Assembly (NCBI GenBank): GCA_035477215.1
Contig: DATIKU010000061.1
Coordinates: forward strand, 1 to 64,000
Reading direction: 5' to 3'
Source of the DNA: Spirochaetota bacterium
GTDB taxonomy: Bacteria > Spirochaetota > UBA4802 > UBA5368
DNA: 64,000 nt
Positions 34,782-51,150 of the stretch are shown here, piece after piece. Each line of letters begins with the position of its first letter. Within the stretch, counting starts at the first letter, position 1. The notes beneath the pieces are model-generated. The model saw only the letters and a list, made by a program, of their open reading frames with translations, ran no database searches and had not been told where the DNA came from. The translations under genes and the position numbers were made by a program.

Positions 34782-35951
34782 ATGGTCTCACGAAAGATAA
34801 AAATAGACCTCGAGTACCTCAGGCCCGATAACAGCTTTATTTATCCGCTGTATTCGAAAACCGGCGAGATGGTGCTCGAGGCCAGGGCCGTGCTTACCGC
34901 CGAAAAGATAGCATACATTTCCGAAAAATACGGCCATAAGCTATATTACACCGATACCGGTGAGCGCGCGGTCATTCCCGCCTACCGCATGAAAATCGCC
35001 TACAACAAGTCGCGCGAGATCATGGAAGAGATCATGAACACCGAGAAGCTCTCGCGCACCTCGCTCCGCGATGCCGAGAAAGTCGTCGAGGAAATCGTCA
35101 ACGACCTGAACACCGCCGACGTGGAGGCCGTGGAGCTGTTAAAGGACCTGAAATCCCACGATGAATACCTGTACAATCATTCCGTCAATGTGGGGGTTCT
35201 CGCCGCGCTCTTCGCGAAAAAGCGGGGCAATTTCTCGCTCGAAGAGATCAAATACATCACCCTCGGCTCGTACCTGCACGACATCGGCTCCACCAGGATC
35301 GACAAGCAGCTGCTCAACAAGGAGGGAAAGCTCAACATCACCGAAGTACAGAAGATGAAGCGCCACCCGCAGCTTGGATACGAGATTTTAAAGAACATCG
35401 AGCGGGTGAGCCCGATAGTGTTACAATCCGTTCTTTTTCATCATGAGAAATTCAATAACCGTGGATATTACGGGCTGCCGTATGAAAACCTTCCCGACTT
35501 TCCCAAGATCGTGTCGATTTGCGACATCTACGACGCGCTCACCTCGAAGCGACCGTTCAGGGAAGCCGTATCGGTCGAATACGCCCTCAAGGCGATCGTA
35601 AACACCATCGATGTGCATTTCGATTATGAAATAATCAGCGACTTTATAAACAGGATAGCCCCGATACTCAATCACTCCCAAAGCTTCTATACTAAAAACG
35701 ATTTCTGCGAGCTCAACACGCAAGAGCTGGCAATGGTCCGCGAGCTTGGAGTGAAAGACTACCTGAAACCGAAGGTTACGGTCTTTTGTAAGTTCGTCAG
35801 GGAAGGAAACAGGCTGGCCGTCAACTTCTACCAGAAACCGATACAGGTGGACCTGGACAAGGACGCACAGCGAAAGCTCGCGAAGATCATCAGCAACGAG
35901 ACCCAGATCGCGGCCATCAAGAAAAAGCTTGAAGAGCGCGACTTCTTTTAA
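34782..35951 (+). CDS. HD-GYP domain protein with degenerate GYP motif
   Basis: The protein has 389 residues. The N-terminal 120 are of unknown fold. An HD-GYP domain follows, with NHSVNVGVLAALFA, LGSYLHDIGSTRID (HD pair) and VLFHHEKFNNRGYYGLP. The metal-binding His and Asp residues are retained, but the GYP signature reads G-Y-Y. The C-terminal 100 residues (KDYLKPKVTVFCKFVREGNR) are beta-rich and might be PilZ-like. Canonical members hydrolyse cyclic di-GMP; this one may or may not. It overlaps the convergent lplA gene by four bases. Confidence 0.88.
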   Translation: MVSRKIKIDLEYLRPDNSFIYPLYSKTGEMVLEARAVLTAEKIAYISEKYGHKLYYTDTGERAVIPAYRMKIAYNKSREIMEEIMNTEKLSRTSLRDAEKVVEEIVNDLNTADVEAVELLKDLKSHDEYLYNHSVNVGVLAALFAKKRGNFSLEEIKYITLGSYLHDIGSTRIDKQLLNKEGKLNITEVQKMKRHPQLGYEILKNIERVSPIVLQSVLFHHEKFNNRGYYGLPYENLPDFPKIVSICDIYDALTSKRPFREAVSVEYALKAIVNTIDVHFDYEIISDFINRIAPILNHSQSFYTKNDFCELNTQELAMVRELGVKDYLKPKVTVFCKFVREGNRLAVNFYQKPIQVDLDKDAQRKLAKIISNETQIAAIKKKLEERDFF

Positions 35952-36754
35952 CCCCCGGGCCCCCCGGATATCGGCCGAATCGACCGGTCGCGGTTCCAGG
36001 CCTCAAGGCCGAAAAGCCCATTTTCGATCCGTACGGCCTCTTCCTCCTCCCGTCCATTGAGGCCTCCTTCCCCGAAGACGCATCCAAGCCTGTCCGCGAA
36101 CGCGCGTGCAAGTCGCCCGGCGAGTTCGGACGCGAATCCCGTCGCCAGCACCCGTTCCCCAAGCAGCCGGCGAAGCGATGTCACACGGCCTTCAGGCGCG
36201 GCAGACGGGCCGTCCGGGGACTTTTCCTTCGCCACGTTTAAAATGCGGAACATCCGTTCGGTGTCGACATCAATGAGCAGCGTTCCATGCTGGAGCAGGA
36301 CCCCTTCCCTTCTGGTCTGGGCGCTGCCCGACACCTTGGCCCCTTCCACCAGAACATCGTTGACCGGGGCGAATTCCGCCTTCAGTCCGAGCCCCTGCAG
36401 GGCATCAACGATCGGCGCGCAGAGCAGCCCGTATGATTCTCGGATGGATTGCGCGGCCGTGCGGTGCGAAAGCGGTATAAAGACGCTGTAGGTAAGCTCG
36501 TGCTCGTGGAGTACGGCCCCTCCGCCGGTAACGCGCCGTATGACGGCCACGCCCTCCCGGCTGCACTCCGCCTCGCGCACCTCCTCCTCGATCCTCTGGA
36601 AGTAGCCGATCGTAACGGCGGGCGTATCCCACGAGTACAATCGGAGCGTCGGCGGACACGCGCGACGGGCAAGCGAATGAAGGATGGCGAGGTCGACCGC
36701 CATGTTGTACGCGCCCCGCCGTGGAATATCGATGATAAGCCGCCATGTCTCCAT
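35948..36754 (-). CDS. lplA: Lipoate-protein ligase A, catalytic domain
   Basis: The protein has 268 residues, a single BPL/LplA/LipB-fold domain with RRVTGGGAVLHEHELTYS and NDVLVEGAKVSGSAQTR, containing the conserved lysine. The active Cys typical of LipM octanoyltransferases is absent (the place reads AEFAP), and the NDxxx segment is like LplA. The C-terminal accessory domain found in E. coli LplA is missing and is encoded by the preceding gene, with which this one overlaps as TAATG. It should activate and attach lipoate or octanoate to GcvH. Confidence 0.87.
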   Translation of the reverse strand: METWRLIIDIPRRGAYNMAVDLAILHSLARRACPPTLRLYSWDTPAVTIGYFQRIEEEVREAECSREGVAVIRRVTGGGAVLHEHELTYSVFIPLSHRTAAQSIRESYGLLCAPIVDALQGLGLKAEFAPVNDVLVEGAKVSGSAQTRREGVLLQHGTLLIDVDTERMFRILNVAKEKSPDGPSAAPEGRVTSLRRLLGERVLATGFASELAGRLARAFADRLGCVFGEGGLNGREEEEAVRIENGLFGLEAWNRDRSIRPISGGPGG

Positions 36755-37059
36755 TATGGCTGTTTCTCCGCATCGCAGCCCGAAGCGGCCTCGACCGTTC
36801 CACGCGCGATGCTCTCTATTGACAGGCCGATAAGTTGAATGCCCCCGGAATCTACCGCCTCCCGCAGACGGTCCCGTACCGTGTTCAATTCCGGGCGCAC
36901 TCCGCGCAGCGCCTCCTCGATCCTGAGCACCGCTTCTTCCGGATGCACGAAAAAGTCGCCGGTGAGCCGCACGCCTTGCACCAGGCCGTCCGCCATGTCG
37001 ATCGAAACCCGAAGGAGCTTTTCCCCCGGCGCTTTAATGACCGCGGTATGCATCGTCAC
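36754..37059 (-). CDS. lplB: Lipoate-protein ligase accessory (C-terminal) domain, LplB-like
   Basis: The protein has 101 residues from GTG 37059, which overlaps the lipA stop as GTGA; ATG 37053 is an alternative. The sequence APGEKLLRVSIDMADG, VRLTGDFFVHPEEAVLRIEE and the rest match the small domain found at the C-terminus of long LplA proteins (Lip_prot_lig_C). In Thermoplasma this domain is a separate protein, LplB, needed for lipoate adenylation by LplA. The arrangement lipA-lplB-lplA strongly supports the same role here. Confidence 0.85.
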   Translation of the reverse strand: MTMHTAVIKAPGEKLLRVSIDMADGLVQGVRLTGDFFVHPEEAVLRIEEALRGVRPELNTVRDRLREAVDSGGIQLIGLSIESIARGTVEAASGCDAEKQP

Positions 37060-37913
37060 CGCTTCGAAAGCTCGCCCGCGTGATAGGAGCTTCGCACCAT
37101 CGGGCCCGCGAGCACCCGGGCAAAGCCCATCGATTCGGCACGCAGGCGGATCGACTCGAACTCCGCGGGAGTGTAATACTTCGCGACGGGGTGGTTTTCC
37201 TTTCGGGAGCGGAGGTACTGCCCTACGGTCAGGATGGAGCAGCCCGCATGGCGAAGGTCCTCCATCGTCGAGCTGAGATCATCGATCGATTCTCCGAGCC
37301 CCGCCATAAGGCCCGACTTCACCGGTATGCCGGATAGGACTGCGCGCGAAATAAGCCCGAGCGACAGTCCGTAATCCCCCTGCGGGCGAAGGGCCGGAAA
37401 AAGCGGGCCGACGGTTTCCATGTTGTGATTGATTACGTAAGGACCGGCACCGACGACGCGTTCGAGCGACCGCTCCATGCTCGCGCGGAAATCGGGCACG
37501 AGCACCTCGACACGGCACGATGGGGAGATATCCCGTATGGCCGAGACGGTTTCGGCAAAAATGGCGGCGCCGCCGTCCGGCAGGTCGTCGCGCGTAACCG
37601 AGGTGACGACCGCGTATTCGAGGCCGAGCTCGGCGACGGCGCGCGCCACGCGGCCTGGCTCGTCCGGGTCTACCGGCGTGGGCCTTCCGTGCCGTACCGC
37701 GCAATAGCGGCAGTTCCGCGTGCACACATCACCCATAATCAGGAACGTCGCTGTCCCGCTGCAGAAACAATCGCCGATGTTGGGACAGCGCGCCTCCAGG
37801 CATACGGTGTGAAGGCCCTCGCGTTCTATGACGCCCTTTACCCGCACGTAGTCGGTGCCGCCGGGTATCTCCAGGTTGATCCAGCGGGGGATGCGCGCGC
37901 CTATCCCTCCCAT
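37056..37913 (-). CDS. lipA: Lipoyl synthase
   Basis: The protein has 285 residues. The auxiliary cluster motif is CLEARCPNIGDC (C-x4-C-x5-C), the radical-SAM cluster motif is CTRNCRYC (C-x3-C-x2-C), and the C-terminal RSSYHAGE supplies the serine ligand. It inserts two sulfurs into an octanoyl group bound to GcvH or another carrier protein. Its ATG lies 13 bases inside the end of gcvPB, so it is translationally coupled to the glycine cleavage genes. Confidence 0.97.
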   Translation of the reverse strand: MGGIGARIPRWINLEIPGGTDYVRVKGVIEREGLHTVCLEARCPNIGDCFCSGTATFLIMGDVCTRNCRYCAVRHGRPTPVDPDEPGRVARAVAELGLEYAVVTSVTRDDLPDGGAAIFAETVSAIRDISPSCRVEVLVPDFRASMERSLERVVGAGPYVINHNMETVGPLFPALRPQGDYGLSLGLISRAVLSGIPVKSGLMAGLGESIDDLSSTMEDLRHAGCSILTVGQYLRSRKENHPVAKYYTPAEFESIRLRAESMGFARVLAGPMVRSSYHAGELSKR

Positions 37914-39325
37914 TTAAGCACCGGTTTGCGCGCCGCGAGCACCGCATCGACCCTCCGCACAGGCGTTGAGTGCGGTGCGCTTTTAACGGTTTCGGGATCG
38001 CTCTCCGCCTCGCGCTTAATTTCGATCATCGCGGCGGCGAAGGACTCCAATGTCTCACGGTTCTCCGTTTCGGTCGGTTCAATCATGATCGCACCGGGGA
38101 TGAGGAGCGGGAAATAAACCGTGGGCGCGTGGAATCCGTAATCGAGAATTCTCTTGGCGATATCGTTGGTGGTGACGCCGTTGGGCATGTCTTTATCGTT
38201 GAGGACGAACTCGTGCTTGCATATTCGGTCGATCGGGAGGTTGTATTCCCTTCTCAGCAGGGAGAGCAGATAGTTGGCGTTGAGTACGGCGGTCTCTCCG
38301 GCGTCGCGGATGCCATCGGGTCCCAGCATTCTGATGTACGCATACGCACGGAGCGCCACCAGAAAATTCCCATGGAACGAGTGAATGCGGCCGATGGAAT
38401 CGGGCCGGTTTTGCTCGAGGTAAAAGCCGTCATCGCCCTTTAACACAACGGGGACCGGCAGGAAGGGCTCGAGTTCGTCGCTCACTCCCAGTGGGCCCGA
38501 GCCCGGGCCGCCGCCGCCGTGCGGCGTCGAAAATGTCTTGTGTAAATTGATATGCATTAGGTCGAAGCCCATGTCGCGCACCTTCGCCACGCCGAGTATC
38601 GCGTTGAGGTTCGCGCCGTCGCAATAAAAAAGCGCACCCTTCCCGTGCAGCACACTGGCGATTTCAACGATGTTGCGGTCGAAAAGACCGAGCGTATTGG
38701 GACTGGTGAGCATCATTGCGGCCACGTCTTCATCGACCATCGATGAAAGCCTCTGCATGTCGACATCGCCTTCGGGGGTCGACGGCACCTCCCGCACATC
38801 GAAGCCGCACATGGCCACTGATGCGGGGTTGGTGCCGTGCGCTGAATCGGGGATGAGGATAACGCTGCGCTTTTCGCCTTTCTTCTCAAAATATTTTTTT
38901 GCCACCATCAGCCCGGCAAGCTCGCCGTGCGCGCCGGCCGCGGGAGCGAACGAGAAGCGCCGCATCCCGGTTATGGTTGCAAGATACTCCGACAGATCGT
39001 ACAGCACCTCGAGCGCCCCCTGGGCGAGGGCCGGCGATGAAAGTGGATGGAGCGAAGTGAAGCCGGAGAGCGAGGCGACGCGTTCGTTGACCTTGGGATT
39101 GTATTTCATGGTGCAGCTTCCCAGCGGATACATTCCCGTATCCACACCGAAGTTCATCCGGGAAAGGGCCGTGTAATGCCGCACGATGTCGACCTCGCCC
39201 ACTTCGACAAGGTCCACGCCGTCGTTACACAGAGCCGCGGGGATGGGGTCGGTTTCCTCGAGCTGCCACGACGGCATGGCATAGGCGCTTCTTCCGCATC
39301 TGCTCTTTTCAAAAATAACCGGCAT
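37901..39325 (-). CDS. gcvPB: Glycine dehydrogenase (decarboxylating) subunit 2
   Basis: The protein has 474 residues and forms the C-terminal half of the P-protein. The PLP-binding lysine is in HINLHKTFSTPHGGGGPG, preceded by the YCDGANLNAILG segment. PALVARY-type P-proteins of this split form work as an alpha2-beta2 enzyme that decarboxylates glycine onto the lipoyl arm of GcvH. It is separated from gcvPA by 77 bases. Confidence 0.97.
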   Translation of the reverse strand: MPVIFEKSRCGRSAYAMPSWQLEETDPIPAALCNDGVDLVEVGEVDIVRHYTALSRMNFGVDTGMYPLGSCTMKYNPKVNERVASLSGFTSLHPLSSPALAQGALEVLYDLSEYLATITGMRRFSFAPAAGAHGELAGLMVAKKYFEKKGEKRSVILIPDSAHGTNPASVAMCGFDVREVPSTPEGDVDMQRLSSMVDEDVAAMMLTSPNTLGLFDRNIVEIASVLHGKGALFYCDGANLNAILGVAKVRDMGFDLMHINLHKTFSTPHGGGGPGSGPLGVSDELEPFLPVPVVLKGDDGFYLEQNRPDSIGRIHSFHGNFLVALRAYAYIRMLGPDGIRDAGETAVLNANYLLSLLRREYNLPIDRICKHEFVLNDKDMPNGVTTNDIAKRILDYGFHAPTVYFPLLIPGAIMIEPTETENRETLESFAAAMIEIKREAESDPETVKSAPHSTPVRRVDAVLAARKPVLKWEG

Positions 39326-39402: not shown

Positions 39403-40731
39403 TTACCGGGCGCACCGCTTCACCGCTTCAGCGAAGGCGTCTATTTCCGCGGGGCTCGTCATCTCCGTACAGCAGACGAGGACGCAGTCTGCGTATTCCC
39501 CGTAATAATCCCCCAGGTGTACTCCGGGAATAAAACCTTCTTCCTCCAGTCGCTTCATCACGACCGGGGCTTTTTTTATCCCTACCGCGAACTCGTTGAA
39601 ATAGGGTCTGTCGAATACGGCTGTAAATCCCTTCGATGCCAGCAGGGATTTGCAACGCGCCGCAAGCCGGTGGTTGAGTTCCGCAAGCGGTCGAATGGCG
39701 TTGCCCAGCGCGGAAAGGTAGATTACCGCTCGAAGGGCGCAAAGCCCCTGGTTGGTGCAGATGTTCGACGTGGCCTTCTCGCGGCGTATGTGCTGCTCGC
39801 GCGTCTGGAGCGTCAGCGCGTACGCGTCCTTGCCGTCTGAATCGACCGTTTTTCCGACAAGGCGGCCGGGCATGCGGCGCATGAACTCGCCCTTTGCCGC
39901 CAGGAACCCGAGCGCCGGCCCGCCGTATCCCACGGGATTACCGAAAGACTGCGCTTCACCGCAGAGGATGTCCACGCCGAGCTTTCCAGGCGCGGCGATC
40001 AGGCCAAGGCTGTGGGGCTCGGTCACCACCACGATGCTGTGCGCCTTCGCGACATGGGCGGCCCCGGTTATCGCCGCGACGTCCTCTATACAGCCGAAGA
40101 AATTGGGGTTCTGGGTGACCACCGCGGCCGTGGCAGAGTTCAGCGCCCCGGCGAGTGCGGATGTATCCATCACCCCGTTCGCAGATGGCAGTATGCGCAG
40201 TTCGAGCCCGTTCGCTCCGCAGTAGGTTTCAAGCACCGCGCGATAATGAGGATGCAGCGTGTCGCCGGCGACCACCGATTTTTTCCCCGAAGCGTGCATC
40301 GACATGAGCACCGCCTCGGCGAGCGCCGTCGCGCCGTCGTACATGCTCGCGTTGGCGACGTCCATGCCCGTGAGCCTGCAGACGAAGGTCTGAAACTCGA
40401 AAATGGCGGTGAGGGTGCCCTGGCTCACCTCGGCCTGGTAGGGCGTATACGCGGTGTAAAACTCCGACCGCGAGGCGAGCGCGTCAACCACCGCGGGCAT
40501 GTAATGAACATAGGCCCCGGCCCCGGCAAAGCAGCGTCCCGGGCGGTTTTTTGCGGCCAGTTCCTCCATAAGACGCATGGTCTCGATCTCGGATAGCGCG
40601 GATGGAAGGTCGAGATCCTTCCCCAGACGCATGGCCTCGGGTATATCCGTGAAGAGGTCGTCGACGGCGCGCACGCCGATTGATTTCAGCATTACATAAC
40701 GGTCGTCCTCGGGGCTGCACGTATATTTCAT
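39403..40731 (-). CDS. gcvPA: Glycine dehydrogenase (decarboxylating) subunit 1
   Basis: The protein has 442 residues, the N-terminal half of the split P-protein. Typical features are FAGAGAYVHYMPAVVDAL, YTPYQAEVSQGTLTAIFEFQ, TGMDVANASMYDGATALAEA and GGPALGFLAAKGEFMRRMPG. It pairs with gcvPB. It starts one base after the gcvH stop region, so the two are almost certainly coupled. Confidence 0.97.
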   Translation of the reverse strand: MKYTCSPEDDRYVMLKSIGVRAVDDLFTDIPEAMRLGKDLDLPSALSEIETMRLMEELAAKNRPGRCFAGAGAYVHYMPAVVDALASRSEFYTAYTPYQAEVSQGTLTAIFEFQTFVCRLTGMDVANASMYDGATALAEAVLMSMHASGKKSVVAGDTLHPHYRAVLETYCGANGLELRILPSANGVMDTSALAGALNSATAAVVTQNPNFFGCIEDVAAITGAAHVAKAHSIVVVTEPHSLGLIAAPGKLGVDILCGEAQSFGNPVGYGGPALGFLAAKGEFMRRMPGRLVGKTVDSDGKDAYALTLQTREQHIRREKATSNICTNQGLCALRAVIYLSALGNAIRPLAELNHRLAARCKSLLASKGFTAVFDRPYFNEFAVGIKKAPVVMKRLEEEGFIPGVHLGDYYGEYADCVLVCCTEMTSPAEIDAFAEAVKRCAR

Positions 40732-40732
40732 A

Positions 40733-41125
40733 TCACTTCTCCGGTTCTATGTGGGCGGCGTAGGCGTCGGCGTTCATCAGGCTGTCGAGCTCGCCCGGGG
40801 ATTTTACCTCTATCTTGAATATCCAGCCCTCGCCGTAAGGGTCGCCGTTGAGAAGTTCAGGTGAATTTTCGAGCGCCTGGTTGACGCCGGCGATTCTTCC
40901 CGAAAGCGGCGAATACACGTTCGATACCGCCTTTACGGATTCGACCACTCCCACCTGCTCCCCCTGCGCCACCTCCATTCCGGTTTCGGGCAGTTCGACG
41001 AAGACGATGTCGGTAAGCATCTCCTGTGCGTGGTCAGTGATGCCGCAGGTGGCGTTGAACTCGTCGTCCATGCGTATCCACTCGCTGTCTTTCGTGTACT
41101 TAAGATCTTCCGGTATATTACTCAT
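40733..41125 (-). CDS. gcvH: Glycine cleavage system H protein
   Basis: The protein has 130 residues, the usual GcvH length, with the lipoyl-lysine in VVESVKAVSNVYSPLSG (near residue 65). It shuttles the aminomethyl group between the P and T proteins and is the likely substrate of the lipoate enzymes encoded downstream. It lies 174 bases after gcvT; that gap shows no gene. Confidence 0.97.
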   Translation of the reverse strand: MSNIPEDLKYTKDSEWIRMDDEFNATCGITDHAQEMLTDIVFVELPETGMEVAQGEQVGVVESVKAVSNVYSPLSGRIAGVNQALENSPELLNGDPYGEGWIFKIEVKSPGELDSLMNADAYAAHIEPEK

Positions 41126-41299: not shown

Positions 41300-42388
41300 T
41301 CAGCCGTTGAAGGCGTAGAACGGTCGTTTTACCACCCTCGCCGGGACCGGATTGTCCCGTACCACGAGCGAAAACCAGTCGCCGATCCCGAGCGAGCCGG
41401 CCCGTACCAGGGCCATACCGATCCCTTTTTTGAACGTGGGAGAAAAACCGCCGCTGGTGCTTATCCCGATCCCGACACCGTCTTTGATTACCTTGCAGTG
41501 TTCACGCGGCACACCCCTGCCCTCGAGTTCGAAACAGATAAGAGCGCGCGGCGCACCATTTTCCTTCTGCCCGGCAAGGACACCGCGGCCGATATAGTCG
41601 TCCGCGCTCGTTACAAGCCATCCGAGGCCCGCTTCGACCGGCGTGATGGTATCGGACAACTCGTGACCGTAAAGCGAATAAGCGGCCTCCAGACGCAGCG
41701 TATCGCGCGCGCCAAGGCCGACGGGCCTTATTCCATACGCCTCTCCCGCGCCGAGGATGTCTCTCCACAGGGGAACCGCCAAATCGTTCGGAACGAAGAG
41801 CTCGTAGCCGTTTTCGCCGGTATAGCCGGTGCGCGAAACCATCATCCGAACGCCTTTGTAATCGGTATGAAAGAACTGAAAGCGGCCCATGCTTCCAGCC
41901 CGCTCATCACCGACGACCTTTTTCAGAATATCACCCGAGGCGGGCCCCTGCAAGTCAATTTTGGACGTTTCGGCCGAAACGTCGATTATTTCAGTGTCAC
42001 CGGTCGCGTGAGTGCGCATCCAGTCGAGGTCCCCGTCGAGCGTCGCTGCGTTTACCACGATATAGTATTCAGTTTCAGAAACCATAAAAATGAAGATATC
42101 ATCGACCACTCCGCCGTTGTCGCGGCACAGGCAGCTGTACATCGACGTCCCAGGAGCGAGTTTGCTCAACCTCGTCGGGATCAGACGGCGGAGAAAACTT
42201 TCCGCCCCCGTTCCCTTCACGATCACCTCTCCCATATGTGAGACGTCGAACAGGCCCGCCTTCGTTCTTGTTGCGTTGTGTTCCTCTATTATCGACGAGT
42301 ACATTACCGGAAGCTCCCATCCCGCGAAATCGACCATGCGTCCCTTGAGGGCCAGGTGTTCCCCGTGGAGCGCCGTTCTTTGTATCAT
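41300..42388 (-). CDS. gcvT: Glycine cleavage system aminomethyltransferase
   Basis: The protein has 362 residues with the folate-binding aminomethyltransferase pattern: HMGEVIVKGTGAESFLRRL, DDIFIFMVSETEYYIVVNA, DLQGPAS and SRTGYTGENGYELFV, then GLGARDTLRLEAAYSLYGHE. It transfers the methylene group from GcvH to tetrahydrofolate, releasing ammonia. Its start overlaps the stop of the flavoprotein gene by four bases. Confidence 0.97.
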   Translation of the reverse strand: MIQRTALHGEHLALKGRMVDFAGWELPVMYSSIIEEHNATRTKAGLFDVSHMGEVIVKGTGAESFLRRLIPTRLSKLAPGTSMYSCLCRDNGGVVDDIFIFMVSETEYYIVVNAATLDGDLDWMRTHATGDTEIIDVSAETSKIDLQGPASGDILKKVVGDERAGSMGRFQFFHTDYKGVRMMVSRTGYTGENGYELFVPNDLAVPLWRDILGAGEAYGIRPVGLGARDTLRLEAAYSLYGHELSDTITPVEAGLGWLVTSADDYIGRGVLAGQKENGAPRALICFELEGRGVPREHCKVIKDGVGIGISTSGGFSPTFKKGIGMALVRAGSLGIGDWFSLVVRDNPVPARVVKRPFYAFNG

Positions 42389-43719
42389 CGGGCAATCCTC
42401 CTTAATGCGAATTCAACCGCCCTGTTGAGGGGATCGATCACCTTGCTCACCGCGGGGCAGTACGCGAGCTCGACCCTCCAGAAATCGGCCGGCATTACCC
42501 CTGCATCAAGCGCCATGCTCACGAGGTTGATGCGTCCGGCCGCTCCATTTTCGGCCACCGCCTGAGCCCCTAAAAACCTCCCCGAGTCCCTGTCACATAT
42601 CACCTTGAGTGAAATCTCGGTATTGCCGGGGAAATACTCCGGAAGTATACCGGTGCGGATTTTCCCCTCGACCGGGGTATAGCCGGCGCCCTTCGCGGCC
42701 TCGGTGGTATATCCGGTGCCGGCCACCTCCAGCTTGCCGACTTTCGTTACGAACGTGGCGGCCGTTCCCCGATAGGCGACATCGCCCCCCGACGCGTTGA
42801 TGCCCGCGACAACGCCCTGGCGATAGGCGCAGGTTGCGAGCTTGACCGGCACCCTCGCGCCGTCGATCACCGACCAGGCCGCAATACAGTCTCCCGCCGC
42901 GAACACGCCGGGGACCGAGGTTCGCATCCGTTCATCCACGGTGATGCCGAGCGGTTCGAAGGCGATTCCGGAACCGGCTGCCAGGTCCGTGTCCGCGCGG
43001 AACCCGGCCGCGAGGATGCCGATCTCGGCCTCATATGCTTTTTCTCCGCTCGTTACACCGGCGAACCCGGCGTCCGAAAGAATGCCGTCGACCGACGCCC
43101 CGGCGTTCATCACGACACCGTGTAACTCCATATGTTCCCGTACCGGCACGGACATGTCCGGGTCGAGGATGCCCGGAAGCACCTGCGGTTTCATCTCAAA
43201 TAGATATATTGTTTTAAGATGTTTGCGGAGCGCGATCGCCGCCTCGAGGCCGATCGCCCCGGCCCCGATAACAACCCCCCGAACCGCCGAATCGAGTCGA
43301 TCCTTTATCTTCTTTAAATCATCCACGGTCGCAAGTGGATAGAGCCCGTTGTAGAGCGCCCGCTCCATTCCCGCTATCGCCGGTATCGCGGGAACGCTCC
43401 CCGTGGCGATGATAGCGGCATCGAACGCAATGGCGCGCTCTCCGTCGCCGGCGTGCATTGTTATTGTCCGTGAATCGGCGTCGATTCTCACCGCCTCTCC
43501 GGCAAGTTTTTTGACTCCCATTTTGGAAAGAAGGATATCCTGTTCGAGGCCCGCGGCGGGAACATGTCCCCCGAGGGAATAGGGGATGCCGCAGGGGTGC
43601 ATCAGGTCGGTCAACTTTGGATCTATTACGGTAATCCGCGATTTCGGCGCCGTGCGTCTGATGCTCATCAGCGCCGCGTATCCGGCGCTTCCCAGTCCGA
43701 TGATAACAATATGGTTCAT
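42385..43719 (-). CDS. FAD-dependent pyridine nucleotide oxidoreductase, CoA-disulfide reductase/NADH oxidase type
   Basis: The protein has 444 residues from ATG 43719, with GGGGG five bases upstream; ATG 43734 is an alternative. It has an FAD dinucleotide fold (IVIIGLGSAGYAALMSI), an NAD fold (GVVIGAGAIGLEAAIAL), the FAD-binding VPGVFAAGDC and a C-terminal dimerisation domain ending in ELAYCPAVSKVIDPLNRA. The redox centre is a single Cys in LMHPCGIPYS, as in CoA-disulfide reductases, not the CxxxxC pair of dihydrolipoamide dehydrogenase. It is the first gene of the riboswitch-controlled glycine cleavage operon, where an L-protein might be expected. Confidence 0.88.
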   Translation of the reverse strand: MNHIVIIGLGSAGYAALMSIRRTAPKSRITVIDPKLTDLMHPCGIPYSLGGHVPAAGLEQDILLSKMGVKKLAGEAVRIDADSRTITMHAGDGERAIAFDAAIIATGSVPAIPAIAGMERALYNGLYPLATVDDLKKIKDRLDSAVRGVVIGAGAIGLEAAIALRKHLKTIYLFEMKPQVLPGILDPDMSVPVREHMELHGVVMNAGASVDGILSDAGFAGVTSGEKAYEAEIGILAAGFRADTDLAAGSGIAFEPLGITVDERMRTSVPGVFAAGDCIAAWSVIDGARVPVKLATCAYRQGVVAGINASGGDVAYRGTAATFVTKVGKLEVAGTGYTTEAAKGAGYTPVEGKIRTGILPEYFPGNTEISLKVICDRDSGRFLGAQAVAENGAAGRINLVSMALDAGVMPADFWRVELAYCPAVSKVIDPLNRAVEFALRRIAR

Positions 43720-43801
43720 ACAGGCCCCCGCCATCTCACCTGTTTTCGGGTATAAAACAAGCGATACCCCCCGATCCGCGGGATATCATTTTCCCGGAAA
43801 T

Positions 43802-43839
43802 AAAAAAAGGAAGACGGTCGTGAAACGCGTCTTCCTCCT
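43802..43839 (-). terminator. Intrinsic terminator of the glycine riboswitch
   Basis: On the minus strand GGAAGACG and CGTCTTCC form an 8-bp stem around an 11-base loop and are followed by seven T residues. It sits between the riboswitch and the first gene of the gcv operon, as an expression platform should. The preceding GGAGGA could alternatively pair with TCCTCC near 43876. Confidence 0.85.
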
Positions 43840-44048
43840 GTCGTTCAACCTGGGATATTATCCCCCCGGGGAGGATTTATAGCCTTCGGTGCCCGTTATT
43901 GCCGGGACTCTCCAGGATGTATACAGACCGCAGTCCTTTTGCCTGAGAGTTTCATCCTTAAACGTTACGGACTTGCCCCTTCGGCGCCCCTTTAGCGACA
44001 GGAGTCTCTCGTGCGAACCCTGTTGAGCATAGCCGTCGCTCTCCCATC
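43828..44048 (-). promoter_or_regulatory. Tandem glycine riboswitch
   Basis: Read on the minus strand, the first aptamer has GGGAGAG (from about 44045), GCGCCGAAGGGGCAAG and AAACTCTCAGGCAAAAGGAC, all hallmark glycine-aptamer segments. A second begins CCTGGAGAG (43917) and has GGGCACCGAAGG, but its 3' core reads AATATCCCAGGTTGAACGAC instead of the usual ATCTCTCAGG form. A terminator follows at once. Such tandem switches turn on glycine cleavage genes when glycine is high, which fits the operon downstream. No clear promoter was found upstream; a TTGACA near 44056-44051 would start transcription inside the aptamer. Confidence 0.93.
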
Positions 44049-45923: not shown

Positions 45924-47084
45924 ATGAAACCGATAGAACTTAAAAAGGGCGTTTACTGGGTGGGTGGAATCGACTGGGACCTCAGAAACTTCCACGGATA
46001 TCTCACCCAGCGCGGCTCGACCTATAACGCGTACCTGATCATTGACGATAAGATTACGCTGATCGACACGGTTAAACACTACCTCTACGAAGAAATGCTC
46101 GCGCGCATTTCGGCGGTGGTCGATCCTGCGAAGATCGATTATATCATATGCAACCACGTGGAGATGGACCACTCCGGTTCCATCCCGCTCATCACGAAAA
46201 CAGCGAAAAATGCCAAGGTGCTTGCCTCTCCGGCCGGCGAGAAAGGGCTCAGGCATCATTACAGGGAAGAGCTCAATATCCGCGCGGTAAAGGCCGGCGA
46301 GACGATACTACTCGGCAAACGCAGCCTCCAGTTCCTGCTGACCCCCATGGTCCACTGGCCGGACAACATGATCGCCTACTGCCCTGAGGAAAAGATACTC
46401 TTTTCAAACGATGCCTTCGGCCAGCATATAGCGACCTCGGAGCGGTTCGATGATGAATACCATGCGGACGTCATCATCGAGGAGGCCAAAAAGTATTACG
46501 CAAACATTGTCCTGCCCTATTCGGCACAGGTTAAAAAAGCGCTCGACGCCGCGGCCACGCTCGACATCGGCGTGATCGCCCCCAGCCACGGCATCATCTG
46601 GAGGAGCGCCATTCCCAACATCCTCCGGCACTACAAAGCGTGGTCGGAGAACACCGTCGAGAATAAGGCACTGGTCATATACGACACGATGTGGAATTCG
46701 ACCAGGAAAATCGCGTACGCGATACGGGAGGCTTTTGAGAACAGAGGCGTTCACACGGCGATGTACGATCTGAAATTCAACCACATCTCGGATATCATGA
46801 CCGATGTATTGACGGCAAGATACATCTGCGTGGGTTCTCCTACCCTCAACAACAACATGCTTCCCGGTGTCGCGGCTTTTCTAACGTATTTAAAGGGCCT
46901 CGCCCCGAGGGATCGCACGGGCCTGGCCTTCGGATCGTTTGGCTGGGGCGGGCAGAGCATCGAGCTCGTCCACAGGGAACTCGAGGGATGCGGCTTCAAA
47001 ATGCTCGAAAAAATAAGGGTACAGTACATTCCCGACGACGACACGCTTTCAGGGATTGCCGGAAAACTCGAGTCGGCGTTGTAA
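45924..47084 (+). CDS. Flavodiiron protein (FprA family, class A)
   Basis: The protein has 386 residues. The N-terminal metallo-beta-lactamase domain carries the diiron ligands: CNHVEMDHSG (H-x-E-x-D-H), MVHWPDNM, FSNDAFGQH and APSHGIIWR. The C-terminal flavodoxin domain has YDTMWNSTRKIA and the FMN-binding GSFGWGGQS. The enzyme reduces O2 to water or NO to N2O, taking electrons from rubredoxin, which is encoded two genes later. It opens the oxygen-defence cluster and has a strong ribosome site. Confidence 0.95.
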   Translation: MKPIELKKGVYWVGGIDWDLRNFHGYLTQRGSTYNAYLIIDDKITLIDTVKHYLYEEMLARISAVVDPAKIDYIICNHVEMDHSGSIPLITKTAKNAKVLASPAGEKGLRHHYREELNIRAVKAGETILLGKRSLQFLLTPMVHWPDNMIAYCPEEKILFSNDAFGQHIATSERFDDEYHADVIIEEAKKYYANIVLPYSAQVKKALDAAATLDIGVIAPSHGIIWRSAIPNILRHYKAWSENTVENKALVIYDTMWNSTRKIAYAIREAFENRGVHTAMYDLKFNHISDIMTDVLTARYICVGSPTLNNNMLPGVAAFLTYLKGLAPRDRTGLAFGSFGWGGQSIELVHRELEGCGFKMLEKIRVQYIPDDDTLSGIAGKLESAL

Positions 47085-47146
47085 TCGCATTATCGGACCC
47101 GCCCGAATATGGGTTTTCAGGTCTGGCGACAGGCGGAATATTTTTC

Positions 47147-47175
47147 TTGATTTCATGCCGCCCTTTGCATAGTAT
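47147..47175 (+). promoter_or_regulatory. Possible promoter upstream of the HMA gene
   Basis: TTGATT at 47147-47152 and TAGTAT at 47170-47175 are separated by 17 bases, 54 bases before the HMA start codon. Each box matches the sigma-70 consensus at four positions. This is a weak call; read-through from the flavodiiron gene is also possible. Confidence 0.3.
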
Positions 47176-47229
47176 CAATTGAGTGTTTGGCGGAGTCTGA
47201 GCCTCGAGGCGGGCGACAGGAGACAGGTG

Positions 47230-47424
47230 ATGAAATTTTTAGTGAAAGATATGTCCTGCCATCACTGTGTCGGGCGAATCAACGATGCGCTTTACCGCCT
47301 TGACGGTGTAGACGGTGTGAAGATCGATCTGGAGCATAAACTCGTTGAAGTCAGCGGCCGGGCGAGCGTCGACGCCGTTATCGACGTCATTAAAGGCGCC
47401 GGATACACCGCAGAAACTGAGTAA
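47230..47424 (+). CDS. HMA-domain metal-binding protein (CopZ-like)
   Basis: The protein has 64 residues from ATG 47230, chosen because AGGAG lies seven bases upstream and because the family has this length. The metal site is MSCHHC (C-x2-C) and the beta-alpha-beta-beta-alpha-beta pattern is complete ([19 protein letters not shown], then [12 protein letters not shown]). Free-standing HMA proteins pass soft metals such as copper to target proteins. Its position between the flavodiiron protein and rubredoxin is unusual. Confidence 0.88.
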
Positions 47425-47500
47425 TCAGGCCGCGGACCGGGCGTTTCATTTTTCTGTTGAAAATTTTATTAAGTTATACCAATTACCTGGGGAGGATTTT

Positions 47501-47662
47501 ATGAAAAAGTACGTATGCACGGTGTGCGGCTATATTTATGATCCCGCCATCGGTGATCCCGACAATGGCGTTAAACCCGGCACCGCTTTCGAAGACGTCC
47601 CAGCCGACTGGGTATGCCCCGTTTGCGGAGTTGAAAAGGATTCGTTCGAGGCGGAGAAGTAA
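47501..47662 (+). CDS. Rubredoxin
   Basis: The protein has 53 residues from ATG 47501, with GGGGAGGATTTT upstream. The iron ligands are in [10 protein letters not shown] (C-x2-C) and CPVCGVEKD (C-x2-C), with the conserved WVCP. It passes electrons one at a time to the flavodiiron protein, desulfoferrodoxin and rubrerythrin encoded in the same cluster. The start lies in a different frame from the preceding HMA gene. Confidence 0.96.
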
Positions 47663-47686
47663 TACGGCTCAATCGGGAGGTATACA

Positions 47687-49009
47687 ATGGATGTTGTTCT
47701 TCTTTCCCGCATTCAGTTCGCCGTTGCGGCGGGCTTTCATTTTATCTTCCCGCCGCTGACATTCGGGATAACGCTTGTCATCCTCGTTCTCGAAACCCTG
47801 TATCTTAAATCGGATCAGGAAATCTTCAAGACGATATCTTCGTTCCTTATCAAAATCCTGGGGCTAATATTCGTTTTGGGCGTCGCGACGGGCATAGTTC
47901 TCGAATTCTCTTTCGGAACCAACTGGTCACAGTATTCGCGCTTTGTGGGGGATATTTTCGGCGCCCCACTCGCCGCCGAGGGTATACTGGCGTTTTTCCT
48001 TGAATCGGTGTTTCTTGGATTGCTCCTGTTCGGCCGCAACCGCGTATCGCGGAAGTTTTACTGGTTTTCGGCCTTCCTGGTCTTTTTCGGCGCGCTCCTG
48101 TCGGGTTTCTGGATAATCATCGCCAATTCCTGGATGCAGACCCCGGCCGGCTATGCTATAGAAGGCGGCCGCGCGGTGCTGACGGACTTTTACGCCGCCG
48201 TGTTCAATCCATCTACAGTCATAAGGTTCCTGCACACCATGCTCGCCGGCTGGATTACCGGCTCGCTTTTCCTCGCGGGACTTGCGGCCTGGTACCTGCT
48301 CAACAGGCGTCATGAGGCCATCTCCAAAATACTAATGAAGATATCGCTGACTATCTTTATCTTCTCGGCGCTGGCCCAGTTCGTATCCGGTCACTCGAGC
48401 TCGGTCCAGGTGGCTAAAACACAGCCGGAAAAAATGGCGGCCTTTGAAGCGCTCTGGAACACGATGGAAGGGGCGCCCCTCTCCCTCTTCGGAATCCCCA
48501 TCGAGAGCGAGCAGAAAACATACCTTGAGGTTTCGGTCCCGAAGCTGTTGAGCCTGCTGATTTATTCCGACCCGGACGCCAGGGTGCTTGGACTCAACGA
48601 ATTCAAGCCCGACGAGAGACCGCCAGTATTCCTTCCGTACCTGTCCTATCATGTGATGATCGCACTCGGCGCGCTGTTCGCCCTCCTGGCGGCCGTCGGC
48701 GCGGTGATGCTCGTTCGCGGCACCGCGTATACCGCCAGATGGTTCCTTGTCGCTCTCATCGCCGCGATCCCGCTGCCGCATCTTGCCAACCAGTTCGGCT
48801 GGATCGCCGCGGAGGTCGGCCGCCAGCCCTGGGTCGTGTACCGAGTGCTTAAAACTGCCGACGCGGTTTCCGTCGTCGTGCCAGCCTGGCAGGTGCTCTT
48901 TTCTCTGATCATGTTCTCGCTTATCTATATGCTTCTTTTCGTGGTGTTCATCATGATACTCCTTAAAATCGTGAAGAAGGGACCCGGCGCGACATCCGAA
49001 GGATACTGA
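47687..49009 (+). CDS. cydA: Cytochrome bd oxidase subunit I
   Basis: The protein has 440 residues with about nine membrane helices. Haem and quinol features are visible: an N-terminal His in AGFHFIFPPLT, His in RFLHTMLAGWITG, the Q-loop GHSSSVQVAKTQPEKMAAFE and GWIAAEVGRQPWVVYR. The Q-loop is of the short type. The enzyme reduces O2 with quinol and has high oxygen affinity, so in an anaerobe it acts in respiration or oxygen removal. It lies 24 bases after rubredoxin. Confidence 0.96.
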   Translation: MDVVLLSRIQFAVAAGFHFIFPPLTFGITLVILVLETLYLKSDQEIFKTISSFLIKILGLIFVLGVATGIVLEFSFGTNWSQYSRFVGDIFGAPLAAEGILAFFLESVFLGLLLFGRNRVSRKFYWFSAFLVFFGALLSGFWIIIANSWMQTPAGYAIEGGRAVLTDFYAAVFNPSTVIRFLHTMLAGWITGSLFLAGLAAWYLLNRRHEAISKILMKISLTIFIFSALAQFVSGHSSSVQVAKTQPEKMAAFEALWNTMEGAPLSLFGIPIESEQKTYLEVSVPKLLSLLIYSDPDARVLGLNEFKPDERPPVFLPYLSYHVMIALGALFALLAAVGAVMLVRGTAYTARWFLVALIAAIPLPHLANQFGWIAAEVGRQPWVVYRVLKTADAVSVVVPAWQVLFSLIMFSLIYMLLFVVFIMILLKIVKKGPGATSEGY

Positions 49010-49040
49010 CCTGCACGGGAATTACAAAGGAGAAATCACC

Positions 49041-50045
49041 ATGGAAACAATGGCATTCTTACAGACGTCCTGGTTTGTGATCATTGGGATTCTACTGACC
49101 GGCTACGCGATCCTTGACGGTTTCGACCTGGGAACGGGCGCCCTGCTCCCCTTTCTTGCCAGGGATGACGACGAGAAGCTCATGGTCTTCAACTCAATCT
49201 GGCCCTTCTGGGACGGGAACGAAGTCTGGCTGATCACCGGGGGGGCGGTCCTTTTTGCCGCGTTTCCGCATGCATACGCGACGGTTTTCAGCGGTTTTTA
49301 CCTGGCTTTCATGTTTATCCTTTTCGCACTCATCTTTCGTGCTGTTTCCATCGAATTCTGGTACTACGATGAGAAGCGCCGGGGCCTGTGGAGCGCGGCC
49401 TTCGTTGTGGGCAGTCTGCTTCCCTCGCTCCTCTTTGGTGTCGCTCTCGGCAATGTGATAGTCGGCATCCCGCTCGCCGAATCGATGGAGTTTACCGGTA
49501 ATTTTTTTACGCTCCTGCGTCCCTACCCGCTTGCGCTCGGCCTGCTCGGCCTTTCCGCCATATTGATGCAGGGGGTTACATTTATCACCATGAAGACTGA
49601 CGGCGCGGTCCAGAAACGCGCCCGCGAACTCTTCGGCAAAATATGGGCCATCTTCGCCGCCGCGCTGGCCCTGTCGTTCATCGCCACCATTATCTACATG
49701 CCCGAAAGCCTCGCGAGCCCGTATGTATGGATATCAGCGACCGTGGTAATCGCCGCGTGGCTCCTCTGCAGGCGTTTTGCCTCGACGGGGAAGATGGGGG
49801 CGTCATTCGCAATGTCATCGCTCAGTTTCGCGGGACTGTGGGGTATCGTTGGCGTAACCCATTTCCCAAACCTGGTAAAGGCGACCGGCGACGCCGCGCT
49901 CAGCATCACCATATACAACGCCTCCTCGGGGGAGAAGACTCTTACGGTCATGTTGTGGATAGCGCTTATCGGCATGCCGATTGTCATCCTGTATACCGCC
50001 TTTGTTTACAGGGTGTTCAGGGGGAAAGTGATGACGGCAAAATAG
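49041..50045 (+). CDS. cydB: Cytochrome bd oxidase subunit II
   Basis: The protein has 334 residues with about eight to nine membrane helices and the typical N-terminus (YAILDGFDLGTGALLPF, then NSIWPFWDGNEVWLITGGAVLFAAFP). It supports assembly and stability of the haem-bearing subunit I. The start has GGAGAAATCACC upstream. No cydX-like small gene was found in the 54 bases between this gene and the next. Confidence 0.96.
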   Translation: METMAFLQTSWFVIIGILLTGYAILDGFDLGTGALLPFLARDDDEKLMVFNSIWPFWDGNEVWLITGGAVLFAAFPHAYATVFSGFYLAFMFILFALIFRAVSIEFWYYDEKRRGLWSAAFVVGSLLPSLLFGVALGNVIVGIPLAESMEFTGNFFTLLRPYPLALGLLGLSAILMQGVTFITMKTDGAVQKRARELFGKIWAIFAAALALSFIATIIYMPESLASPYVWISATVVIAAWLLCRRFASTGKMGASFAMSSLSFAGLWGIVGVTHFPNLVKATGDAALSITIYNASSGEKTLTVMLWIALIGMPIVILYTAFVYRVFRGKVMTAK

Positions 50046-50099
50046 GCCTACCGTGTTACTTTGGCGGGATTGTATTCTTTATATTGAAAAGGAGGAAAT

Positions 50100-50477
50100 A
50101 TGGTTAAAGAAAGGCTGGAAGTCTATAAATGCGATGTATGCGGAAATATCGTGGAGGTTCTTCATGTGGGCGGCGGCGAACTGGTATGCTGCGGTCAACC
50201 GATGAAGCTGCTCTCCGAAAACACCACCGACGCCTCGAAGGAGAAGCACGTTCCGGAGATTGAAAGGACCTCCGACGGCCTCAAGGTAAAGGTTGGAAGC
50301 GCACCGCACCCGATGGAAGATAAACACTGGATAATGTGGGTTCAGCTTATCGCCGACGGAAAGAGCTACCGGCAGTTCCTCAATCCCGGCGACGCTCCAG
50401 AGGCCGTGTTCAAGGTCTCCGCGGACAAACCGGTCGCGCGGGAATACTGCAATCTGCACGGGCTCTGGAAGGCTTAG
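50100..50477 (+). CDS. dfx: Desulfoferrodoxin (two-iron superoxide reductase)
   Basis: The protein has 125 residues. The N-terminal desulforedoxin domain binds the first iron through CDVCG and CCGQPM. The catalytic domain has [20 protein letters not shown] and C-terminal YCNLHGLW, giving the four His and one Cys of the superoxide-reducing site, with the conserved Glu-Lys pair. It reduces superoxide to peroxide without making O2, using rubredoxin as donor. Confidence 0.96.
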
Positions 50478-50574
50478 AACGGTATCGGGTCAGTATATTT
50501 TACGCACGAATCCGGCGAGAGGCTTCGGCGCATTCACCGTTTCTATCAACGTATATATTAAACTGGGAGGATCA

Positions 50575-51150
50575 ATGAAAAGCGTTAAGGGAACAAAAAC
50601 CGAGAAAAATCTCCTCGCTTCTTTCGCCGGCGAATCGCAGGCGCGGAACAGATACACCTATTTCGCGTCGGTGGCGAAGAAAGAAGGGTACGAACAGATG
50701 GCCGCCATATTCCTCGAGACGGCCGAAAACGAGAAGGAGCACGCCAAACGATTTTTCAAGTTTCTCGAGGGCGGCGAAGTCGAAATCACCGCGTCGTATC
50801 CCGCCGGTGTGATCGGCACCACGGCCGAGAACCTCAAAAATGCCGCCGCGGGCGAGAACATGGAGCACACCAAACTTTATCCGGAGGCGGCGAAGATCGC
50901 CGAAGAGGAGGGATTCAAGGAAATCGCGTTTGTATTCCGCAAGATCGCCGAAGTCGAGCTTCACCACGAGATTCGGTATCTCAATCTTCTTAAAAACCTC
51001 AAGGAAGGGAAGGTTTTCAAAAAAGACACCGAGGAGAAATGGATATGCCGCAACTGCGGATACATTCACGAGGGCAACGCGGCCCCCGAGAAATGCCCCA
51101 CGTGCGATCATCCCAGGGCGTATTTCGAGCTGCTCTGCGACCATTTTTAG
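50575..51150 (+). CDS. rbr: Rubrerythrin
   Basis: The protein has 191 residues. The N-terminal ferritin-like domain ([45 protein letters not shown]) supplies the diiron ligands, and a C-terminal rubredoxin-like domain has [10 protein letters not shown] and [11 protein letters not shown]. It reduces hydrogen peroxide and completes the chain from superoxide to water. It is the last gene of the cluster and is followed by a terminator. Confidence 0.96.

Follow-up and report, generated by a model that had tools for sequence, protein, structure and literature searches.

A flavoprotein of the coenzyme A-disulfide reductase type as a candidate replacement for the L-protein in a spirochaetal glycine cleavage operon

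The L-protein of the glycine cleavage system is usually assumed to be dihydrolipoamide dehydrogenase (Lpd), shared with other complexes when its gene lies outside the operon. In related disulfide reductases, the catalytic histidine is contributed by the opposite subunit and is positioned near the cysteine pair and the FAD (PMC10910545). Glycine cleavage without Lpd has been described in Eubacterium acidaminophilum, for which a thioredoxin system has been proposed (PMC4056300). Among the CoA-disulfide reductases (CoADR), residues 56–76 of phCoADR constitute one wall of the cleft that receives CoA (PMC6026696). Here we analyze a glycine cleavage operon, carried by a group of uncultured spirochaetes, that begins with a flavoprotein of the CoADR type, and we consider it probable (about 0.75) that this protein serves as the L-protein replacement of the system.

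The locus resides within a 64,000-nucleotide stretch of DNA from a Spirochaetota bacterium (positions 1 to 64,000 of contig DATIKU010000061.1, assembly GCA_035477215.1), referred to below as the window. The flavoprotein gene is the first in the operon and is followed by gcvT, gcvH, gcvPA, gcvPB, lipA and lplA, all on the minus strand and 3′ of a glycine riboswitch (Table 1). Its stop codon and the gcvT start codon (at position 42388) share the four bases ATGA. The T, H and P proteins of the glycine cleavage system all score above the curated cut-offs of their models, and the operon includes no gene for Lpd. An earlier sequence-only reading of this DNA had described such an arrangement, with the flavoprotein at the head of the operon and under the same riboswitch as gcvT, and the open reading frames, the ATGA overlap and the match to the riboswitch model bear it out.

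Table 1. Features of the flavoprotein gene, the gcv operon and its leader in the window
Feature	Position	Strand	Size or evidence
CoADR-type flavoprotein, proposed replacement L-protein	42385..43719	-	444 aa
gcvT, aminomethyltransferase	41300..42388	-	TIGR00528 381.6 bits, over cut-off
gcvH, lipoyl carrier protein	40733..41125	-	TIGR00527 158.4 bits, over cut-off
gcvPA, glycine dehydrogenase subunit 1	39403..40731	-	NF001696 579.3 bits, over cut-off
gcvPB, glycine dehydrogenase subunit 2	37901..39325	-	NF003346 706.5 bits, over cut-off
lipA, lipoyl synthase	37056..37913	-	TIGR00510 329.4 bits, over cut-off
Lipoate ligase / octanoyltransferase (LplA/LipM type)	35948..36754	-	PF21948 169.5 bits, PF03099
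Glycine riboswitch aptamer, single	43921..44023	-	RF00504, 57.6 bits vs gathering score 32
Terminator-like hairpin and T-run, between aptamer and flavoprotein gene	43802..43835	-	sequence
Cys43 codon in HPCGIPY, flavin-adjacent cysteine of the family	43591..43593	-	invariant in alignment
Cys421 codon in AYCPAVS, aligned with the Lpd catalytic His	42457..42459	-	hhalign with Lpd

The riboswitch aptamer also gives a weak match to the GGAnGA variant, which falls under the gathering score of that model. The region between aptamer and flavoprotein gene that contains the hairpin (43790–43860) folds with a z-score of −4.1 relative to shuffled sequences, and the hairpin with its T-run probably represents the expression platform of the riboswitch. 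We considered whether the riboswitch is a conserved companion of the flavoprotein and dropped this idea, as only one of the eight other loci searched holds a glycine riboswitch that reaches the gathering score; the element is thus not a defining part of the system. On the opposite strand beyond the riboswitch (45924–51150, plus strand) lies a run of frames that by eye resemble a flavodiiron-type protein, rubredoxin, cytochrome bd subunits, a desulfoferrodoxin-like and a rubrerythrin-like protein, and that, judged in the same manner, may constitute the oxygen-defence set of an anaerobe.

The motif HPCGIPY occupies residues 41–47 of the flavoprotein and includes the active-site cysteine within CGxPY that is expected of a CoADR. 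Its earlier attribution to a CoADR-type centre stands as far as family is concerned. The protein scores 250 bits against the CoADR model TIGR03385, far below the curated cut-off of 578.8, and two of its orthologs (L131 and L055) reach 270 and 302 bits against the same cut-off. An AlphaFold2 model of the monomer (pLDDT 91.4, with residues 411–430 as its lowest-confidence part) adopts the fold of the CoADR/Nox/Npx group, and the solved structures nearest to it are those of CoADR and persulfide reductases, with Z values of 44–46. By the curated cut-off, and equally by the criterion of a single cysteine, the flavoprotein is not a CoADR, yet its fold is that of CoADR. Judged from its sequence, it is also not an Lpd: its score against TIGR01350 (110.1 bits) lies below the curated cut-off of 408.8, the redox-active CxxxxC of Lpd (GGxCxxxGCxP) is missing from its N-terminal FAD domain, and the catalytic histidine that Lpd carries in the C-terminal motif HPT.SE is replaced by Cys421. 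The flavoprotein may, however, work like an Lpd.

The assembly to which the window belongs is a draft MAG of 3.57 Mb in 62 contigs and is 95.5% complete. A search of this assembly with TIGR01350 revealed no Lpd above the cut-off; the best match (131 bits) is a 589-aa frame that is itself of the CoADR type. The class-I motif GGxCxxxGC[IV]P, searched as a DNA pattern, has no copies in this genome and none in seven other genomes that carry the flavoprotein, and it occurs once each in G017 and G029, in both cases inside the Lpd of the gcv operon. No intact lipoyl E2 enzyme was found in the window's genome. The sole E2 candidate there is an orphan 66-aa frame (L118:1471-1668; G000:C2:92327-92479) that resembles the C-terminal part of the 2-oxoacid dehydrogenase E2 catalytic domain. 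Nothing else in the genome looks like E2, and these searches thus revealed no lipoyl-dependent system besides glycine cleavage. The genome does encode three TrxR-like proteins (L004, L007 and L013), none of which is linked to gcv genes.

Among 46 genomes of the order that were searched for the flavoprotein, orthologs were found in 20 relatives, with 44–85% identity over the full-length copies. The gene is followed directly by gcvT in 18 of these 20; in G008 it is followed by gcvH, and the contig of G038 breaks off within the flavoprotein gene. Three genomes (G010, G031 and G043) have the flavoprotein-gcvT pair at a site apart from gcvPA. None of the 393 Spirochaetota genomes searched outside the order yielded the flavoprotein. 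A scan of a genome collection, which detects close relatives only and gives a survey of two groups, returned proteins of 37–43% identity in four genomes of a distant group (L054–L057, recorded as bacterium, ADurb.Bin236 and UBP15) and in G064, with the gene in each case directly after gcvH. In L055–L057 and G064, gcvT precedes gcvH, and the contig of L054 starts at gcvH; lipA follows the flavoprotein gene in L054–L057, and gcvP is found at other sites in the genomes of this second group, G064 included. That a second lineage has these partners too, arranged in another order, argues that the function is shared. A control set, made up of the 20 homologs nearest to the clade from outside it, has neither gcvT nor gcvH within flanks of 1.5 kb. 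The sequence-only reading had named beforehand what would count against it, namely a normal lpd encoded elsewhere and a linkage to gcvT peculiar to this genome. Neither proved to be the case: the assembly, at the stated completeness, shows no lpd and no class-I motif, and the linkage extends to most relatives that have the gene and, with gcvH as the neighbor, to the distant lineage.

One of these loci differs in its surroundings. In G008 (96% complete), the flavoprotein gene, gcvH and lipA are adjacent (L076:6953-10131; G008:C13), no gcvP was found in the genome and no gcvT lies nearby; either the bin has lost gcvP or the flavoprotein-gcvH pair has another use.

The distribution of the flavoprotein alternates with that of genuine Lpd among the genomes compared, all of which are draft MAGs. 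Genuine Lpd is present in all seven gcvP-containing genomes that lack the flavoprotein and have a readable 5′ end, and it is missing from 18 of the 19 gcvP-containing genomes that possess the flavoprotein, the exception being G005, where Lpd is encoded directly after an E2 gene. The corresponding table (18/1 versus 0/7) yields a p value of 1.2e-5, which is descriptive, the genomes being related and their kinship uncorrected. Five genomes of the sister genus g12 carry the operon gcvT-H-PA-PB-lplA-lipA-Lpd, in which the terminal Lpd retains both CxxxxC and HPS.SE; for the two of these proteins that were scanned, lipoamide dehydrogenase is the best-matching family. In G025 and G035, Lpd is encoded outside the gcv operon, in G025 beside an E2 gene.

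Several apparent departures from this pattern were examined and set aside. G028 seemed to contain gcvP and neither enzyme; its contig begins inside gcvT, which places the expected site of the flavoprotein gene off the contig, and the contigs of G027 and G030 are cut likewise. Additional Lpd proteins seemed to be present in G002, G005, G039 and G042, with scores of 318–380 against TIGR01350, and in these HAYP, PYPS or SFPT replaces the HP of the catalytic motif. The three that were scanned (from G002, G039 and G042) match NF004991 better, and the one from G005, a second Lpd-like protein next to the genuine Lpd of that genome's set, likewise lacks the catalytic histidine. In G002, the class-I motif matches a second time, in a reading frame that is interrupted by stop codons. 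Proteins of this kind at L175:6056-7504, L177:5490-7620 and L178:5845-8222 are class-I disulfide reductases with HAYP or PYPS for HP that score 318–380 on the lipoamide dehydrogenase model; those in G005 and G039 are encoded beside small membrane-protein ORFs, and such reductases could be misannotated as Lpd. Elsewhere in the Spirochaetota, a single-contig genome that is 90% complete (L174; G048:C1:3162000-3181000) has gcvPA and gcvPB, with no Lpd at an E value of 1e-60 or better and no ortholog of the flavoprotein.

The flavoprotein contains five cysteines, at positions 43, 278, 297, 375 and 421. Cys278 belongs to a GDC motif that is frequent in the family, and Cys297 and Cys375 are variable. 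In an alignment of 19 rows, Cys43 and Cys421 are invariant, together with His41 and Pro42. Cys421 occurs within AYCP in 23 of the 24 gcv-linked proteins with a readable C-terminus and in none of 29 other CoADR-type proteins, most of which have YAPP or YSPP at this site. The gcv-linked proteins form one clade, set off by a branch supported at 100/99. The one copy without Cys421 (L085:2944-4207; G039:C239) has AYAP in place of AYCP and is frameshifted near residue 104; it might be a decaying gene or an assembly error. A more distant CoADR-type protein with no gcv genes nearby (L151:1501-2820; G100:C25) combines PCGIPY with THPAL, which puts a histidine in the Cys421 column.

Profile-profile alignment of the flavoprotein with 12 Lpd sequences (hhalign, E value 2.7e-43) pairs LAYCPAVSKV with HA-HPTLSEV, such that Cys421 falls on the catalytic histidine of Lpd, proline on proline and serine on serine. 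The alignment skips one residue, Tyr420 next to Cys421, and leaves the N-terminal 61 residues uncovered. If this alignment holds, Cys421 would face Cys43 across the dimer interface. The flavoprotein has a few residues fewer than phCoADR in the stretch that lines up, by profile alignment, with the CoA-cleft wall. These observations divide the earlier proposal, according to which a single-cysteine enzyme in place of the L-protein might reoxidise dihydrolipoyl-GcvH, couple the reaction to CoA or some other thiol, or send electrons elsewhere. The description as a single-cysteine enzyme is misleading, Cys421 being as conserved as Cys43 in the gcv-linked orthologs, and the link to CoA finds no support in the form in which it had been stated, given the location of Cys421 at the position of the Lpd histidine and the shortened cleft wall. 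The proposed reoxidation itself has strong support from context, given the lack of lpd, the linkage in two lineages and the alternation with Lpd.

In the mechanism that we propose, a homodimer of the CoADR type would have been re-purposed for electron exchange, with the lipoyl arm of GcvH on one side and NAD+/NADH on the other. Cys43, on the flavin side, and Cys421 of the partner subunit would form a disulfide across the dimer interface. One thiol of dihydrolipoyl-GcvH would attack Cys421′, and the second lipoyl thiol would then close the lipoyl disulfide. From Cys43 the two electrons would go to FAD and then, by way of the reduced flavin, to NAD+; the invariant His41 may serve as a base. The cycle could also run in reverse, in the direction of glycine synthesis. 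The invariant Glu175, at the end of the second strand in the NAD fold, points to a preference for NAD over NADP. Formation of the disulfide, the identity of the substrate, the direction of the reaction and the NAD preference are all predictions from sequence comparison.

Replacement of the L-protein by the flavoprotein is well supported by its position in the operon, by the failure to find lpd, a class-I CxxxxC protein or an intact lipoyl E2 in the genome, by the gcv linkage in two lineages, by the alternation with genuine Lpd, by the membership of the gcv-linked proteins in one clade and by the conservation of Cys43 and Cys421. On the other side stand the draft state of the genomes, the gap and incomplete coverage of the Lpd alignment, the low model confidence at residues 411–430, G008, where the flavoprotein gene occurs in a genome in which no gcvP was found, and the TrxR-like proteins of the window's genome. 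That the protein fills this role and that both cysteines participate in some form has, in our estimate, somewhat better than an even chance. We give roughly even odds to the narrower proposition that Cys43 and Cys421′ act as a redox pair. The most specific formulation is tentative and rates slightly below even: the flavoprotein would be a second, independently built lipoyl dehydrogenase on a CoADR scaffold, with a cysteine at the place of the partner's catalytic histidine and a redox disulfide (Cys43/Cys421) split across the dimer interface rather than held in one CxxxxC loop, and at least two bacterial lineages would use it as their L-protein.

The main rival retains the replacement role and assigns it to a true single-cysteine enzyme, in which Cys43 would form a mixed disulfide with the lipoyl arm via a flavin C4a adduct, in reverse of the CoADR reaction, the lipoyl dithiol would provide the second thiol and Cys421 would tune the site or act in acid/base catalysis. 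The CoADR-type fold of the family and its CGxPY centre are compatible with such chemistry. However, the near-perfect retention of Cys421 in gcv-linked proteins, and its lack in all others, would be left unexplained, and we regard this variant as unlikely. We assign a still lower probability to a flavoprotein that is co-regulated with glycine cleavage as a CoA-disulfide, persulfide or other small-thiol reductase, with thioredoxin and thioredoxin reductase reoxidising dihydrolipoyl-GcvH. The proposal for E. acidaminophilum, which lacks Lpd (PMC4056300), and the three TrxR-like proteins of the window's genome lend it some plausibility; yet the gene linked to gcv is that of the flavoprotein and not those of the TrxR-like proteins, and the score of 250 bits against a CoADR cut-off of 578.8, the shorter CoA-cleft stretch and the presence of Cys421 speak against a small-thiol reductase.

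The flavoprotein could also be an NADH oxidase or peroxidase with a protective or tuning role in the pathway, lpd having been missed in the unassembled few percent of the genome, since Nox and Npx belong to the superfamily of the flavoprotein and the genome, at 95.5% completeness, is not closed. This is hard to reconcile with the absence of genuine lpd from 18 of 19 gcvP-containing flavoprotein genomes and its presence in their sisters, or with linkage to gcvT, gcvH or lipA in two lineages, and we judge this explanation very improbable. The replacement of the L-protein by the flavoprotein, for which both conserved cysteines would be at hand, is the reading that we prefer.

Here, whole genomes are without Lpd and also without lipoyl E2 complexes, and what appears to fill the role is an enzyme to which databases would give the name CoA-disulfide reductase. 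If this reading is correct, it would close an annotation gap for glycine cleavage and for its reverse, glycine synthesis, would provide a functional assignment for a branch of flavoprotein disulfide reductases that still lacks one and would represent a natural experiment in the conversion of a single-cysteine flavoenzyme into a lipoyl dehydrogenase. Our literature search, with subscription journals and preprints outside its scope, found no paper on a CoADR-type L-protein. Both the scaffold and the pathway are known, and the proposed active-site arrangement and role have gone unrecognised so far.

The flavoprotein can be compared with several described systems. E. acidaminophilum and Clostridium litorale resemble the case analyzed here in that they cleave glycine in the absence of Lpd (PMC4056300). 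For them, a thioredoxin system together with a selenoprotein has been proposed, whereas here a CoADR-type enzyme is encoded in the operon itself. With the CoA-disulfide and persulfide reductases (P. horikoshii 4fx9 and 5l1n; B. anthracis 3cgb and 3ict; the A. fulgidus persulfide reductase 6pfz; TIGR03385), the flavoprotein has in common the whole-chain fold (Z 44–46, 27–32% identity), the CGxPY centre and the FAD and NAD(P) domains. It differs from CoADR in the HPC that precedes the centre, in YCP for YAPP, in the shorter CoA-cleft stretch and in its association with gcvT, gcvH or lipA wherever the neighborhood is readable. With Lpd (E3, the L-protein; TIGR01350) it has in common the proposed job and the place in the pathway, and its C-terminal dimerisation motif aligns with that of Lpd residue by residue, but it lacks CxxxxC and has a cysteine for the catalytic histidine. 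A chemical parallel is offered within its own superfamily by the L40C mutant of NADH peroxidase (1nhr, 1nhs), in which, according to the title of the structure entries, an added second cysteine turns the single-cysteine centre into a disulfide, which indicates that such a change is chemically possible. That mutant is engineered and has both cysteines two residues apart in one chain, whereas the flavoprotein is natural and carries its second cysteine in the C-terminal motif of the dimer interface.
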